Below, piece after piece: positions 18,329-31,499 of a stretch of DNA of 64,000 nt (position 1 is its first letter; every line of letters starts with the position of its first letter). The translations under genes and the position numbers were made by a program. Source of the DNA: Gemmatimonadota bacterium (GTDB lineage Bacteria > Gemmatimonadota > Gemmatimonadetes > Gemmatimonadales > Gemmatimonadaceae); contig JAQBQB010000018.1 in NCBI GenBank assembly GCA_028287235.1, positions 186,001 to 250,000 of the forward strand, written 5' to 3'. The notes below the pieces were generated by a model, which was given only the letters and a program-made list of their open reading frames with translations, was not told the DNA's origin and did no database searches.

Positions 18329-18841
18329 TCACCGCGCGGGCACGATGATGCCGTACGAGTTCGGGCCGGTCGCCAGCGGGCCGGATATCCACACCCGCGC
18401 GCCGATCATCCTGCGTAGCGCGTCGGGCGGATTGCCTAGCGTCGTTCGGCCCGTGGACGTCTCCAGCACGACGTGGTCGCCGTCGAGACGAAGCACGCCG
18501 TCGACGACGGGCGACGCACCGACGCGCACGGCGGTGAAGGTGCTCACACGAAAGCCGTCGTCGGCGCGCGTGCCCCGCACCAGCACTTCGACACCGCCCA
18601 GCCGAGTGAGTGCCGCCGAATCTGCCTCGGTGGTGATCCGCAGCCGGGTGGGGCGCGTAGCGGCCGCGCCTTGCAGCACGAGCTGCTGATCGAACCCGGT
18701 GCCGACGATCGACACCACGCCTTGCGCGCTGTCCGGACCCACGGCGGTGGCCGTCGGCTTGCCACGGTGATGGCAGGCGACGCTCAGGACGAGCGCCAGC
18801 AGTCCGGCCCCGCGGATGCTTCCGGGCATGTGACCGCTCAT
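18329..18841 (-). CDS. small lipoprotein of unknown function
   Basis: A 170-residue predicted lipoprotein with signal peptide LLALVLSVAC (lipid Cys23), then an all-beta-looking domain with repeated strand patterns (LRITTEADS, VEVLVRGTRADDGFRVSTFTAV, VLRLDGDHVVLETSTGR). I do not recognise the family; an OB-like or DUF5666-like fold is conceivable. The ATG at 18841 overlaps the stop of the upstream metalloprotease gene by 4 bases (ATGA), so the two are translationally coupled and probably functionally related in the periplasm or at the outer membrane. Confidence 0.7.
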   Translation of the reverse strand: MSGHMPGSIRGAGLLALVLSVACHHRGKPTATAVGPDSAQGVVSIVGTGFDQQLVLQGAAATRPTRLRITTEADSAALTRLGGVEVLVRGTRADDGFRVSTFTAVRVGASPVVDGVLRLDGDHVVLETSTGRTTLGNPPDALRRMIGARVWISGPLATGPNSYGIIVPAR

Positions 18842-20802
18842 TGCGTTCTCACGAGAATGAAGTCGATGTTCGCCGGCGTCGGCTGGCCCGTCGAGGTCGC
18901 GGCGAGTGCGGCCACCGTGCTCGCGGTTACCCGGAAGCGCACGTATGCCGCGCCGCCGCCGATGATGTCGAGCGACAGCGGCGTTCCAGCGACGAGCGGA
19001 TTCGTGTTGAGCGGAAAGCGGCTCCCCGTGGTGATCGCCGGCAGGATGCTTCGGAAATTCCAGCTCAGATTCTGATACCGCGCCGGCACGTTGAGGCTGA
19101 GGTCGTCCACGAACTGCGCGACGGCCCAGTCCCGCGTGTTGGTGATGATGTTGCCGAACACCGCGTTGAAGTTTGCTTGCCCCGACGTGGTGCTGTTCAC
19201 GAGCGCGAACCAGGTGTCTCGCTCGTTGCCGCCGCGCTGGTCGGCCGAGTAGCGGAGCAGCTCCCAGATCGCTCCACGTGTCGGGAGGTTGTCGTTCTGC
19301 GCGTACGGCGAGTTCGACGCCGTGGCCGCGAGATAGCTCTTCAAGCGACCCAGGTTCTGCAGCTGGTACGTATTGATCGCGGCGACCTGCGCCGCGTTCG
19401 CCGCGACGATCGAGAGATCGAGGTTGCTCCTCGGCACGTTGCCCGATTCGCGGTAGTAGAGCAGCTCTTCCGCGATGTGGCTCAAACCCTCGTTGAGCCA
19501 CACCTCTTCCGAGTTGACGAGCGCGTTGTTGACGTAGATCCGGCGTCCCGCGTTGATCAAATGTTGGAACTCGTGCACCAGCGTTCCGAGGACCGTGTTG
19601 GACAGGGCCGACTTGCTCGTGTAGTTCCCGTTGAGCGTCGAGTCCGGATCCGGCACCGGGAGATAGAACATCTCGCCCTCGTTGCTGGCGATGCACGTCG
19701 TGATCGGAAACAGGTCCCGCCCCGCGAACAGCCCGGCGATGAAACCGCCACCGGCCGGACTCGGGATGTTGTTCACGCCCGTGGTAAAGAAAACGCCAAC
19801 GCGCCCGTTCCCATCGATGTCCGATGGGGCGCCGAAGTTGAGCGTGTCGAGTCCGTAGCCGACGTTCTCGAATGAGGTCCCGAACGCCGCGAGCTCGGCG
19901 TCGGTGTAACCGCCGGTCGGGGCGAGCGTGTCGATGAAGACGATCACGTGCTGCGTGACGCTCACCACTCGCGCGCCGTGCACGATCTTCGGGGCGCTGC
20001 ACGTGCTGCCGTTGATGTTGCTGTTCAACTGCACGATCGATCCCACCGTGGGATTGGTGGGGACCCCAGTGAGCTGGGTGGAGGCCCGCAATGACGAGGC
20101 CCGCTTCTGCGTCCGCGCGCTGCCGTTCAGGAAGGCGAGGTCACGCCGCTCCCGCTCGCGGAAGGCGATCTCGAGCTGTGGATTGGGGCCGGGCAGCGCC
20201 TGCAACCGAATGCCGTTCGACGGCACGAGGTTGACGGCTGCCGTCACGGCCACCGTGTTCGTGGATGTGAGTTGAATCGACGTCGTCTGCGCGGCGACGT
20301 TCGAGTTGTTGAATGGAATCAGGACATACTCGGAGGCGGCGGTCAAACCGCCGAGGCAGAGCGACACCGTCTGTGCGGCCGTGAGCGTGCGGATCTCGCC
20401 AAGGGCCATCTGTACGGTCGTGCTGCTCGAGCATTGCGCCACCGTCACGGCGGTCACGGTGATCGACGCCTGTCCCTGCTTCCCGTTGCTCGTGGCGATG
20501 ATCTGCGCCTGCCCCGCGCCCACGCCGGTCACTACACCCGCCGCCGAGACTGTCGCGACGCTTGCGTTACCGGTCGTCCATTGAACTGTTCCAACGGCGA
20601 TCGACGCGCCGTTTTGGTCGAGGCCAGAGGCCGACGCGGTGGCAGTCTGGCCCACCTGAATCGACGAGGGCGACACCGTCACGGTGATCGTCGTGAGCAC
20701 CGGTGGAGGGGGCGGGGTCGTTCCGCCGCCCCCGCACGAGGCCGCACCGATCAGAACGAGAAAACAGGCAACAGCCACCCACACATGACGGCGAACGCGC
20801 AT
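18838..20802 (-). CDS. M30-like zinc metalloprotease lipoprotein with BIG2 domain
   Basis: A 654-residue exported protease. Lipoprotein signal with Cys23 followed by a Gly/Thr/Pro linker, then a BIG2-type Ig-like domain (about 35-120: VSPSSIQVGQTATASASGLD, VTGVGAGQAQIIATS). The catalytic domain carries His410-Glu-x-x-His414 (VHEFQHLINAG) and a second acidic helix VWLNEGLSH with Glu438, the zinc-ligand layout of peptidase family M30 (hyicolysin-like). An acid-rich IDGNGRVGV loop may bind calcium. I chose ATG 20802 because of the lipobox and the GAGG upstream; the open frame to 20874 has no homology. It is coupled to the lipoprotein downstream. Confidence 0.85.
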   Translation of the reverse strand: MRVRRHVWVAVACFLVLIGAASCGGGGTTPPPPPVLTTITVTVSPSSIQVGQTATASASGLDQNGASIAVGTVQWTTGNASVATVSAAGVVTGVGAGQAQIIATSNGKQGQASITVTAVTVAQCSSSTTVQMALGEIRTLTAAQTVSLCLGGLTAASEYVLIPFNNSNVAAQTTSIQLTSTNTVAVTAAVNLVPSNGIRLQALPGPNPQLEIAFRERERRDLAFLNGSARTQKRASSLRASTQLTGVPTNPTVGSIVQLNSNINGSTCSAPKIVHGARVVSVTQHVIVFIDTLAPTGGYTDAELAAFGTSFENVGYGLDTLNFGAPSDIDGNGRVGVFFTTGVNNIPSPAGGGFIAGLFAGRDLFPITTCIASNEGEMFYLPVPDPDSTLNGNYTSKSALSNTVLGTLVHEFQHLINAGRRIYVNNALVNSEEVWLNEGLSHIAEELLYYRESGNVPRSNLDLSIVAANAAQVAAINTYQLQNLGRLKSYLAATASNSPYAQNDNLPTRGAIWELLRYSADQRGGNERDTWFALVNSTTSGQANFNAVFGNIITNTRDWAVAQFVDDLSLNVPARYQNLSWNFRSILPAITTGSRFPLNTNPLVAGTPLSLDIIGGGAAYVRFRVTASTVAALAATSTGQPTPANIDFILVRTQ

Positions 20803-20912
20803 CGGCAACCTCGTTGATCGTCGGCGATCGGGCGCGTTGCGCGCACCGCGAAGGGAATATGAGCAACGTATCACAGATGCGATACTGTCGTTCCCTCGGG
20901 CCGGCAGGGCCG

Positions 20913-21090
20913 TCAGTCGGCGCGCAGCGCCTCAACCGGATCGAGCCGAGCCGCTCGGCGCGCCGGCGTGTAGGTCGCCATCAACGTGACGACGAGCATC
21001 AGCGCGCCCACGGTGACGATCGCGTGCCGTGAGCGAGTAGTACTTGGCCTTCCCGTTCGAGTCCGACAGTCCCCACTCGAAGGACAACGA
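20913..21090 (-). pseudogene. relic of a PadR-permease operon (deletion fusion)
   Basis: Two remnants lie head to tail on the minus strand. From 21090 one frame reads SLSFEWGLSDSNGKAKYYSL, the wing region of a PadR regulator (the intact copy at 31155-31499 has [17 protein letters not shown]). At about 21025 it passes, in another frame, into AIVTVGALMLVVTLMATY then TPARRAARLDPVEALRAD and a stop at 20913, the last segment of a MacB/ADOP permease. The intact operon has the same order, so an internal deletion probably removed most of the permease and the end of PadR. No start codon remains. Confidence 0.7.
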
Positions 21091-21114
21091 ACGGGGCGCC
21101 GGTGGGCGCCCCGT
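21091..21114 (-). terminator. hairpin terminator after OmpR-type regulator
   Basis: ACGGGGCGCC (21091-21100), a four-base loop and the exact complement GGCGCCCCGT (21105-21114) form a 10-bp stem just downstream of the regulator stop at 21119. On the minus strand it is followed by TCGTTGTCC, a weak T-rich stretch, so termination may need help from Rho. It sits exactly at the edge of the PadR remnant. Confidence 0.65.
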
Positions 21115-21118
21115 GTGC

Positions 21119-21871
21119 TCACCGCCGCGTGCCCCGCCGCGCGCGGCGCGGCGACGGGGCAGCGGGATGCAGGTCGAGCACGTATCCCACGTTCGTGATC
21201 GTGCGGATCGAGCAGCCGCCGCCGAGCTTCGCCAGCTTGGCGCGCACGTAGGACACGTAGACCACGGCGATGTTCGTCGGCTGTTCGTCGACCTCGACCT
21301 GCGCCCAGATCGACCGTTGGAGCTCGGCGCGCGACACCGGTTTTCCCGGCTGCAGCAGCAGCCGCTCCAGCAGCTTGAGCTCGATCGGGCTCAGCGACAC
21401 CACATTCCCCGCGTGCGAGAGTCGGCGCGACTCCCGATCGAGCCGCAGCGTGCCGAACTCGCGCGACGTCGGCGTGGCGCGAACGCTGCCGTTCGCCAAC
21501 AGCCGAAGGCGGAGCGTGACTTCGGCGGCCGAAGCGTCGCTCATCGCGAAGTCGCTCGCCCCCGCGTTCGCGGCCGCCGCGACGTCGTCGAGCGAGGCCG
21601 CGAGAAAGAGGATCGGCACCTCCGGCAGCGCGGTGAACGCCGCGCGCACCGCGCGCAACGCGCGCGGCATGCGTCCGTCGACGACCACGACGTCGGCGGT
21701 CGTTTGGAACGCGGGCTCAGCGAACGCTTCCGGTCGGGTCGGCTCGAGTCGAACGACGGGTCGCCTGCCAGCCGCGACCGCGGCCAGCGCCGTTGGCGTG
21801 TCGTTGCTCGCGACGAGAAGCACACGCAGGGGCAGGGCCGATGACTGGTCGGCAGGGGAGAAGGTTCGCAT
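21119..21871 (-). CDS. OmpR-type regulator with degenerate receiver
   Basis: A 250-residue two-domain regulator. Residues about 15-120 look like a response-regulator receiver (LRVLLVASNDT, then VVVVDGRMPRAL with a candidate phospho-Asp, ILFLAAS, AGASDFAMSD), but the N-terminal acidic pair normally found after the first strand is missing. Residues about 145-235 form an OmpR/PhoB winged helix: FGTLRLDRESRRL, LSPIELKLLERLLLQPGKPV, SRAELQRSIW, NIAVVYVSYVRAKL and IRTITNVGYVL. The start at 21871 follows the receiver strand; the upstream open frame is non-homologous. It probably controls envelope or nearby genes; no kinase is adjacent. Confidence 0.82.
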   Translation of the reverse strand: MRTFSPADQSSALPLRVLLVASNDTPTALAAVAAGRRPVVRLEPTRPEAFAEPAFQTTADVVVVDGRMPRALRAVRAAFTALPEVPILFLAASLDDVAAAANAGASDFAMSDASAAEVTLRLRLLANGSVRATPTSREFGTLRLDRESRRLSHAGNVVSLSPIELKLLERLLLQPGKPVSRAELQRSIWAQVEVDEQPTNIAVVYVSYVRAKLAKLGGGCSIRTITNVGYVLDLHPAAPSPRRARRGTRR

Positions 21872-21948
21872 CCAGATCACGGCTCGAGTTCTGATGCTGG
21901 AGTCTGGCACTGGGGCCGCGATCCGGCAAGGCGCAGCCGGCCCCGCGC

Positions 21949-22794
21949 TCATCCCGCGCGGCGCGACCCCGCGACCTGCGGCGTGGCTGCCAGCAGGAAG
22001 GCGGCGAATCCATCGAGCAATTGGGCGAGACCGTCGTCGCGCAGCTCGGCCGGACGATAGCCGGCGTAGCGCCGCAGCGTGTTCCGAAGCGCGGTCGCCG
22101 ACGGATACTCGAGGGACATCGCGATGCGCTCGACAACACCGCCTTGCGTCTCCAGCAGATGCGCCACGATGCTGAGGCGCGACCACGCGATCAGCACCGA
22201 GGGCGTGGGAAAACCGGCCCGCCGGCAGAGGTTCACGAGCGTCTTGCGATGCACGCCCAGCGCCGCGGCGACGCGCGGCACCGAGGTCGCGAGATGCGGA
22301 AAGTACAAACAGTATTCGATGAGTGGTCGCAGCTCCGCCGGAATGAGCGGCTGCAGCCGCTCGAGTGCCTGCGCCGCGCCGCAGCTCTGCGCCGCATGCT
22401 CCAGCGTGTGCCGCAGCACGAGTCCGGAATCGGTGGTGTCGCGGAAGACCAGCTCGTGGATTCCCGCGGCGGCGAGATCGATGATGTCGCGCGAATCCTC
22501 ATGGCCCGCGCGACAGTAGCCCACGATCGCGACCTCCGGCCGCCGCCGCCGCGTCTCGCGCACCACCGGTGCGGTGGGAATGCCCTCTTGGTCACGCGGC
22601 TCGACGACCACCATGCGGAGCCGACGGCCGGCGGTGGCGAGCATGCGGGTGAGCTGCGCGGTCGTTTGACACCAGCGAACGACGGTCGAGGGGGGAAGTC
22701 CGTCGCGAATCCGGGCGAATTGAGAGCGATCGGTCACGCATACGATGACCTCACGGTCATCGCCCGGCGGCGGAGTCACGCGGTGTAACGGCAT
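21949..22794 (-). CDS. pseudo-receiver / AraC-type HTH regulator
   Basis: A 281-residue regulator. The N-terminal half has receiver-like alternation: VIVCVTDRSQFARI, MVVVEPRDQEG, VAIVGYCRAG, and LAAAGIHELVFRDTTDSGLV, but the phospho-Asp position is not conserved (VVVEPRD). The C-terminal half is an AraC-type DNA-binding domain: VPRVAAALGVHRKTLVNLCRRAG in place of the usual first HTH, and SRLSIVAHLLE with VVERIAMSLEYPSATALRNT followed by LRRYAGYRPAEL for the second. Phosphorylation is therefore unlikely; partner or ligand control is inferred. It is tandem with the OmpR-type gene (77 bases) and divergent from the small lipoprotein. Confidence 0.8.
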   Translation of the reverse strand: MPLHRVTPPPGDDREVIVCVTDRSQFARIRDGLPPSTVVRWCQTTAQLTRMLATAGRRLRMVVVEPRDQEGIPTAPVVRETRRRRPEVAIVGYCRAGHEDSRDIIDLAAAGIHELVFRDTTDSGLVLRHTLEHAAQSCGAAQALERLQPLIPAELRPLIEYCLYFPHLATSVPRVAAALGVHRKTLVNLCRRAGFPTPSVLIAWSRLSIVAHLLETQGGVVERIAMSLEYPSATALRNTLRRYAGYRPAELRDDGLAQLLDGFAAFLLAATPQVAGSRRAG

Positions 22795-28503: not shown

Positions 28504-31155
28504 TCAATCCCCCCGCAACGCCGTCGTCGGATCGACACGCGTGGCTCGGCGCGCCGGCAGATAGCTCGCCATGAGCGCAACGAGCCCCAACGCGACCGGC
28601 ACGGCGACGAAGGTAATCGGATCGGTCGCTGTCACGCCGTAGAGCAAGCCGCTCATCGCGCGCGCCGCGCCCGCGGCGGCGACGAGCCCTACGACGATAC
28701 CGGCGCCCGCCAGGGTGAGCCCATCGCGCAGGACCATGCGCAGCGCATCGCCGGGCGACGCACCGAGTGCCATGCGCACGCCGATCTCTCGCGTGCGCTG
28801 CGCCACGGCGTACGACATCACGCCGTAGATGCCGACGACTCCAAGCAGCAGCGCGATGGCCGCGAAGATCGTGAGCAGCAGCATCGTGAACTGCTGGCGC
28901 GCTGCAGAGCGGTCGACCACCGTGCGCATCAGCTCGACGTTGCTCACGGGCGTGCCCGGATCGATCTGCGCCACGGCGGCGCGCACCGCGGTCGCGAGCG
29001 CGAGCGGATCGATCGTGCTCCGCACGACGAGTGATATCTCATTCGTCGGAGCCTGCGCGAACGGACGATACACCGTCTCCTCCGCCTTGCCGGTGAGACT
29101 GTCGAGCTTCGCGTCCTTCACCACGCCCACGATCGTCATCCAGTCGCTCGGCCACGGATACCCGATGCGCTGTCCGATCGCCGATGCATTCGGCCAGAAA
29201 TGTCGGGCGAACGATTCGCTCACCACCACCACCTGCGGCGCGTTCGGCACGTCGGTATCGGCGAACCCGCGGCCACTGAGGAGCGAAATTCCCATCGTGC
29301 CGAGGTAGCGGGGCGTCGCGATCTGATAGTGATCGGCCATGGGAAGGTTGGCGCGAATGTCCTCGAACTGTCCGCCGATGCGGACCGCCAGTCCGCCACG
29401 GCCTGGCGTCATCGGCAGGAAGTTGACGGCCGCGGCCGACTCGACGCCCGGCAGCGCGCTCACGCGATGCAACAGTCCGTCGACGAAGGGCTGAAGCGTC
29501 GCCGGATCGGCGAACCGTTTGGCCGGCGGGTTGACGCGCGCGGTCACGATCGACGCGGTCCGAAAGCCGGGGTCCACGTCGTGCAGCGCCCACATGCTGC
29601 GCACGAGGAGGAACGCGGCCGTGACGAGCAGCACCGCGGCCGCGATCTCACCGCACACGAGCAGGCTCGCCAAACGGCGGTGCGATCCGCCCGCCGTTCT
29701 CGATCCGTCGCGGAGCACCTGCTGCACGTTCTCGCCGCTCGCACGCAACGCCGGCAGCAGTCCGAACGCCACGCCGGTGAGCACGACGAGCACGGTGGTG
29801 AACGCGAGCACGCGCCGGTCGATCGCGATGCTCGCCATCCGCGGAATGTCGGCCGGAAGGATCGACACGACCGCCCGCATGCCCAGCCATGCGAGCGCGA
29901 CGCCGCAGATGCCGCCGAGCGCCGCGAGCACCACGCTCTCAGTCATGAGCTGGCGCAACAGGCGCCCGCGCCCGCCGCCCAGCGCCATGCGCACGGCAAT
30001 TTCCTTTCGGCGCGCGGTGGCCCGCACGAGCAGCAGGTTCGCGACGTTGGCGCACGCGATCAGCAGCACGACGCCGACTACGCCGAGGAGCAGGAGCAAC
30101 ATCGTCTGCGCGGTGCCGACGAGCTGTTGCTGGAGCGGAGCGACCTTGGACTGTTGGTCCACGTACGCCGGACCTGGAGTCCAGATTGGGTTCTCATGCC
30201 GAATCTGTTCCATGACGACGCGAAGTTCTTGCTGTGCCGCGGCGGCGGTCACGCCCGCTCGCAGGCGCCCGACGATCTGGTAGCCGCCGTATCCCCAGAA
30301 CATCCCGCTGCGCGACGCCGGCAACGTATACGGCAGCCAGAGCTGTGTGTCGCGCGACGGAAAGGCGAAGTCGGCCGGCATGACGCCAACGACGGTGAAT
30401 GGCGCGCCCTCGATCAGAATATTCCGTCCGACCACGCGACGGTCCCCGCCGAAGCGGCGGATCCACAGGCCGTTGCTGAGCACCACGACGTTGGTGTGCC
30501 CCGCGACGTTCTCGTCGCCGGCAAACGTGCGGCCCATCGCCGCACCGACTCCCAGCGTGGAAAACAGATTCGCCGACACCGCGGTGACGTCGAGCCGCTC
30601 CGGCTCGCCGTCGCCGCTCAGGCCCACGCTCGTGGCTCGATATGTGGCAACGTCGGTGAACGAGCGACTGAGCTCGCGAATCCGCGTCGCCTCGGCGAGT
30701 ACAGCACCGGCGCCGGCGACGGCGGCAAGTTGCTCGGGGTTGGGGTAGGGGAGGGCACGCAACAGCACGGCGTCGACGATCGAGAACACCGCCGTGTTGG
30801 CGCCCACGCCAAGGCCTAGCGTCGCGACGGCCACGAGCGTGAAGCCCGGGGCGCGCCGCAGGCTTCGAAGGGCGCATTTGAGATCTTGTATCAGATCGTC
30901 CACGAAATCTCTCCGCTGTTGGATGCGTACGAGCTCCTGGTCGTGTGCGCGAAGGGCGGTTTGCACCGAGTCGTAGTCGCCGAAGCGTTCGTAGGCGGCG
31001 CGGCGCGCGGCGTCGGGCGGGAGACCGCGCGCGGCATAGTCGCGGGCCCGCATCTCCAGGTGGAATCGCAGCTCGTCGTCGACGTCGCGATCGACGTCGG
31101 GGCCGAAGAACCGGAGGTAGCGGCGCCAGCCGGGAACGCGGGTCATGCTGGACAT
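28504..31155 (-). CDS. ADOP/MacB-type ABC transporter permease
   Basis: An 883-residue integral membrane protein of the ADOP group (acidobacterial-type duplicated FtsX permeases). After an N-terminal segment ([20 protein letters not shown]) comes membrane helix 1, a large periplasmic MacB core domain, three TM helices, a second periplasmic domain and three C-terminal TM helices, ending in [20 protein letters not shown]. It is likely a mechanotransmission or export component whose ATPase is elsewhere. The ATG overlaps the PadR stop by one base (TGATG). The stop is 16 bases from the convergent TPR gene. Confidence 0.9.
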
Positions 31156-31499
31156 CAGGCGAGCGCCGGCGCCGCGCGAAGCACGCGGGTAACGGCGCCG
31201 GCATAGCGGATCCACTGCGCGGCTTCGCTTCGCAGATGCGCGCGTCCCGTGGCGCTGATCGTGTAAAAGCGCGCGCGGCGGTTGTTCTCGGACAGTCCCC
31301 ACTCCGAGCGCACCCACCCGCGGTCTTCGAGCCGGCGCAGCGCGGGATAGAGCGAGCCCTCCTCGATGCGGAGCACGTCGTCGGTCGCCGCCTCGACCCA
31401 GCGCGCGATGCCGTAGCCGTGCGCCGGTCCAGCGAGCAGCGCCTTCAGCACGAGGATCCCCAACGTGCCCTGCAACAGTTCGCCCGAATCGGGGCGCAT
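31155..31499 (-). CDS. PadR-family transcriptional regulator
   Basis: A 114-residue winged-helix repressor. PadR signatures are visible: [49 protein letters not shown] and [17 protein letters not shown] followed by SATGRAHL. No C-terminal dimerisation domain is present, typical of the small subgroup linked with ADOP permeases. It is co-transcribed with the permease gene, with start and stop overlapping, and probably represses this operon. The promoter at 31530-31558 lies in front. A deletion relic of a similar operon is at 20913-21090. Confidence 0.93.

Follow-up and report, generated by a model that had tools for sequence, protein, structure and literature searches.

Layout of the locus

The window, as the whole stretch of DNA analysed is called here, comprises 64,000 nucleotides of a Gemmatimonadota genome (contig C11, positions 186001-250000; the genome has 5.73 Mb in 31 contigs). 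On its minus strand, two coding fragments abut one another in the space between an OmpR-like regulator gene and a gene for a Big_2-domain protein (Table 1). The first reads (S)FEWGLSDSNGKAKYYSLTA (21081-21025) and resembles the wing of PadR-family regulators, and the second reads AIVTVGALMLVVTLMATYTPARRAARLDPVEALRAD-stop (21023-20913) and resembles the C-terminus of ADOP permeases. They share a strand and follow operon order in different frames, which confirmed the original prediction of a PadR wing running out of frame into a permease C-terminus. Together they form a scar of about 170 bases; the junction position is approximate, and the annotated parts therefore overlap by two bases. The leading F of the PadR piece, absent from the intact copies used for comparison, is perhaps not part of the homologous stretch. 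Third codon positions have a G+C content of 0.89 in each piece and of 0.85 in the intact permease.

Table 1. Coordinates of the scar, its surroundings, the comparison operon and further remnants (window positions, or contig and position)
Feature	Location	Strand	Description
PadR winged-helix remnant	21022..21081	-	19 codons (21081-21025) plus one codon
ADOP permease C-terminal remnant	20913..21023	-	36 codons (21023-20916) plus stop (20915-20913)
Upstream neighbour, OmpR-like regulator	21119..21871	-	Trans_reg_C domain
Downstream neighbour, Big_2-domain protein, putative peptidase-like	18838..20802	-	HEFQH seen by eye
Strong hairpin without T-run	21091..21114	-	Between upstream regulator stop and scar
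Intact ADOP permease, comparison copy	28504..31155	-	TIGR03434
Intact PadR regulator, comparison copy	31155..31499	-	TIGR03433, PF03551
ADOP tail scar (L163)	C15:146533-146758		About 200 bases kept, frameshift, ~93-nt deletion
ADOP remnant (L165)	C3:20865-21152		ADOP profile 391-450 fused in frame to tail; 96-residue open frame
ADOP remnant (L164)	C27:102655-103155		Weak prefix-2-like start plus last 77 residues; 167-residue open frame

The upstream regulator gene belongs to an adjacent pair, OmpR-like and AraC-like, at 21119-22794. A hairpin starts four bases past its stop, and the PadR wing starts 10 bases past the hairpin. The original prediction had placed a hairpin terminator at the edge of the scar; the hairpin is real and stable (-27 kcal/mol, z -2.86, over a region of 51 nt), but it carries no T-run, and a terminator scan found no terminator-like site. 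With only four bases between it and the regulator stop, the hairpin is probably the 3' end of the upstream regulator transcript rather than that of the lost operon. On the other side, the start of the downstream gene (20802) lies about 110 bases beyond the permease stop, and the interval contains an imperfect inverted repeat, CGTATCACAGATGCGATACTG (20867-20887), which is the window's only TATC-N0-10-GATA site. Its reading as an operator was dropped: mononucleotide shuffles average 1.6 such sites, and the stretches of five relatives have no such site just upstream of the gene.

Homology of the two pieces and the missing sequence

For comparison with intact copies, position-weight profiles were made from loci around the genome's PadR matches, of which 40 of 41 were used (the one left out is C2:4842). 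These loci gave 39 PadR-like and 37 permease-like frames; exclusion of three PadR-like frames with short domains and two permease-like frames without the tail pattern left 36 wings and 35 tails, the window's intact operon included. When all six frames of the window were scanned (127,756 positions), the PadR wing of the scar scored 45.6 (intact operon 57.9, third place 5.8) and the permease tail 54.2 (intact 74.6), the next-best tail scores being 15.9 within the intact permease and then -1.0 elsewhere. Each piece thus ranks second in the window, after the intact operon at 28504-31499 only, and both stand about 10 standard deviations over the six-frame background.

Curated family models agree for both pieces, weakly in the case of the wing. 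The tail matched positions 769-803 of the 803 of TIGR03434 (E=6.3e-9), and its 34.5 bits fall below the cut-off of 622.3 bits, the piece having 36 residues and the full protein about 800; with a profile of 20 tails (A1) it gave E=8.0e-12 and so derives from an ADOP C-terminal tail. The wing matched TIGR03433 (padR_acidobact) weakly, at positions 58-79 of 101 (E=0.0022, 18.1 bits with a cut-off of 101.8), its winged-helix domain being incomplete; with a profile of 20 wings (A2) it gave E=5.1e-6 and so derives from the PadR family. Neither of these short pieces matched Pfam.

Across the genome, 43 PadR-wing matches were obtained at E<=1 among the best 150 of 184 candidates. Of these, 41 coincide with the genome's 41 full PF03551 matches and the remaining two are the scar and one weak match (E=0.08, in a 304-aa frame), so that among these 43 the scar is the sole wing match at a truncated PadR. 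The tail profile gave 67 matches at E<=1e-5 among the best 150 of 437 candidates. Of these, 62 lie in frames of at least 800 residues and one in a frame of 429; the other four are in short frames, of 154, 267, 167 and 96 residues, the 267-residue frame being that of the scar. Since the only truncated wing thus stands beside one of the four short-frame tails, sharing its strand and keeping operon order, a chance juxtaposition of wing and tail is very unlikely.

What separates the scar from an operon is the distance between its parts. From wing end to tail start, 29 of the 32 loci having both parts span 2620-2752 nt (median 2654), the other three lying outside the filter of same strand and 1.5-3.5 kb; one further PadR-like frame was excluded from this comparison and from that of identities below. 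Operons of two family-level relatives have spacings of 2681 and 2697 nt, and in the scar the distance is 1 nt. The scar accordingly holds two ordered parts of one unit from which the middle is gone, the pattern by which a deletion pseudogene is recognised. The original prediction had described it as exactly what removal of the middle of an intact operon would leave, which holds for the abutting of the two pieces but not for the front of padR: about 64 of 114 codons (as counted in the window's intact copy), and whatever preceded them, are also missing. In all, about 94% of a window-sized operon is absent, 168 of some 2,997 nt being kept.

Parent, age and origin of the scar

The original prediction took the scar for a duplicate of the operon at 28504-31499, and nucleotide identity did not bear this out. 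That operon ranks 6th of 35 by the tail, 15th of 35 by the wing and 10th of 32 by both jointly; the top joint identity, 69%, belongs to a different operon of the genome, and two family-level operons reach 67-72% identity per piece. On these identities the scar is best described as a leftover of one of the family's members, with no identifiable parent, and for this reason the junction is not placeable to a single base.

Some measure of age was sought in the extent of decay. In a leave-one-out comparison with the genome's intact copies, the tail of the scar scores above 14 of 35 and its wing above 7 of 36, which puts the tail score within the normal intact range and the wing in its lower part; the wing residues F, S (for N) and G (for R) are unseen at those positions in the intact set. 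Neutral decay was then simulated in 3000 trials for each level, with tail and wing parents drawn independently and the wing taken minus its first residue. The share of trials that reached both scores together was 71% with no decay, 16.5% at 0.05 substitutions per site and 1.7% at 0.1, and at 0.15 it rounds to 0.000; the assumption is a parent like the genome's intact copies, and the result is a loose, model-dependent bound that yields no date. Under this model, little decay and a loss that is young relative to paralogue divergence would be compatible with the scores. To call the scar direct evidence of recent loss, as had been done, was too strong, no full copy having been found and synteny being poor.

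Relatives were compared at the level of both the scar and its neighbours. The original prediction had proposed looking in related strains for a full-length copy at this locus; none of the relatives examined has a full operon there, nor the same 180 bases lacking one. In a DNA search of the scar against 58 relatives (at most the best 12 candidates per genome, neighbouring matches being judged by eye), none among the matches listed, apart from the window itself, spans both pieces at one place; in one relative (G025), the two pieces align with a single intact operon at a spacing of 2697 nt. For the upstream regulator gene, a search of 178 other genomes of the family gave nothing at E<=1e-30, and as DNA 21100-21900 matches nothing beyond the window better than 66% over 226 nt. 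The downstream gene has 15 protein relatives, all from Gemmatimonadota, Gemmatimonadetes or Gemmatimonadaceae, with 60% identical ones in genomes G005 and G003. About 40 kb around the gene in each of these two was compared by tblastn (E<=1e-15) with window frames of at least 130 residues in its first 45 kb. The matches comprise only the downstream gene and ADOP/PadR paralogues, and in G005 also a stretch just past the gene end; neither genome has an operon beside the downstream gene or shares upstream neighbours with the window, and their same-orientation ADOP permeases lie 4-6 kb upstream of it and have different tails. With no full-length operon at the locus in relatives and with poor synteny, the event cannot be polarised.

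Taken together, the scar is very probably what remains of a single PadR-ADOP operon that is no longer functional. One source operon is the simplest origin for pieces in operon order on one strand, and more than one event is needed, since padR has lost its front as well. One would be an internal deletion, about 2.65 kb long, bringing padR at about codon 84 against the permease at about codon 848 (codon numbers follow the two intact genes of the window); the other, either a deletion or a replacement by DNA carrying the neighbouring regulator gene, would have taken everything before the wing. The product would yield no working protein of either family and would decay as other bacterial pseudogenes do. 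By analogy with another scar of the same genome, described below, the mechanism may plausibly have been deletion between short direct repeats.

The strongest alternative, itself unlikely, is that the scar is imported debris, its pieces having been joined beforehand or captured during repair or during insertion of the regulator gene, so that no full operon ever stood here. It would account for an upstream regulator gene that finds no counterpart at E<=1e-30 in the 178 family genomes and whose 3' end adjoins the PadR scrap, and for the two closest relatives having the downstream gene without an operon beside it; but the operon order, the common strand and the kept permease stop are what is expected of a deletion in place, and Pfam shows no mobile-element gene among the three neighbouring genes scanned.

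Far less probable is co-option of the remnant, in which the permease tail would now belong to a small membrane peptide that is translated, or to a regulatory leader. A minus-strand frame of 69 codons (21122-20913) does have a GTG start that overlaps the upstream regulator stop, and it ends in the permease tail. Against its use, the joined piece has no match among those listed in the 58 relatives, Rfam gave nothing at E<=1, no promoter-like site was found, and the frame crosses the hairpin. In the most specific and quite improbable version, the last membrane helix and cytoplasmic tail of the permease would be reused as the C-terminal half of a predicted 69-residue single-pass membrane peptide, translationally coupled to the regulator; were this true, a dying operon would have supplied a new small protein with its membrane anchor. 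Much the same low standing is given to a chimera, the join being the assembler's work: a genome in 31 contigs, with an estimated contamination of 3.63% and many paralogous operons, offers the opportunity, but the paralogues look too diverged to have common assembly words at the joins, with 73-82% identity over 50-83 nt among the matches listed elsewhere in the genome. Mere chance resemblance can be practically dismissed, for although the PadR piece has just 19 codons, Pfam was null for both pieces and the TIGR03433 match is only E=0.0022, the intact operon alone outscores them in the six-frame scan, none of the 127,756 positions outside that operon scores as high, and TIGR03434 is matched by the tail at E=6.3e-9.

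Other remnants and comparison with known systems

The other three short-frame tail matches of the genome are remnants too (Table 1), and a PadR part was detected in none of them. Over 175 nt, the scar on C15 shares 81% identity with a living paralogue (L087) whose operon lies at C20:127500-132800. In that paralogue, both ends of the stretch deleted from C15 carry CTCGGCGCG, making this a deletion between short direct repeats. The C3 remnant has lost roughly 320 internal residues without a change of frame, and the start of the C27 remnant scores 24.7 bits with a cut-off of 35. A weak fifth tail, of 16 residues, lies at C28:5866. In a congener (G003), two of 125 tail matches among the best 150 of 485 candidates are in frames of at most 215 residues, and five more are in frames of 424-635 residues. 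Truncated N-termini were looked for with a model of 16 of the 17 prefixes, the search covering those other than type 2, and none of 34 prefix matches at E<=1e-4 (among the best 150 of 377 candidates) is in a short frame. Preferential retention of tails was considered and rejected, as 0 of 34 and 4 of 67 is too small a difference and the two models differ in sensitivity.

The scar illustrates what is left over when copies are lost from a very large paralogous family, namely pieces no longer than a few hundred bases; this one genome has 41 PadR matches and, among the best 150 of 437 candidates, 62 ADOP tail matches in frames of at least 800 residues. Such pieces are probably missed by gene callers. 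A single scar changes nothing, and as a countable class scars could aid an estimate of the loss rate of the family. Literature searches with the ADOP name, or with Gemmatimonadota, PadR and permease, returned an IJSEM species description and a pig study alone, and the search made for direct repeats with pseudogenes returned no match.

Among known systems, the scar is like the PadR-ADOP operons (TIGR03433 plus TIGR03434) in order, strand, profile positions and permease stop, and differs from them in having no full domain and in frames that disagree across the join. It is like the remnants on C15, C27 and C3 in that an upstream piece is joined to, or lies shortly before, the permease C-terminal tail; these differ in their undetected PadR part, in the in-frame join of C3 and in the close resemblance of C15 to a living paralogue. 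That bacterial pseudogenes are lost through deletion is well known, and in Kuo and Ochman (2010, PMC2916853) the Salmonella pseudogenes were identified between conserved neighbours, 346 of 378 having a single inactivating mutation. The scar resembles these pseudogenes in its truncation by deletion without a transposon, and differs in being nearly gone and in having lost synteny. It looks like the ordinary remnant of a dead gene, left by the ordinary birth and death of members of a large gene family.
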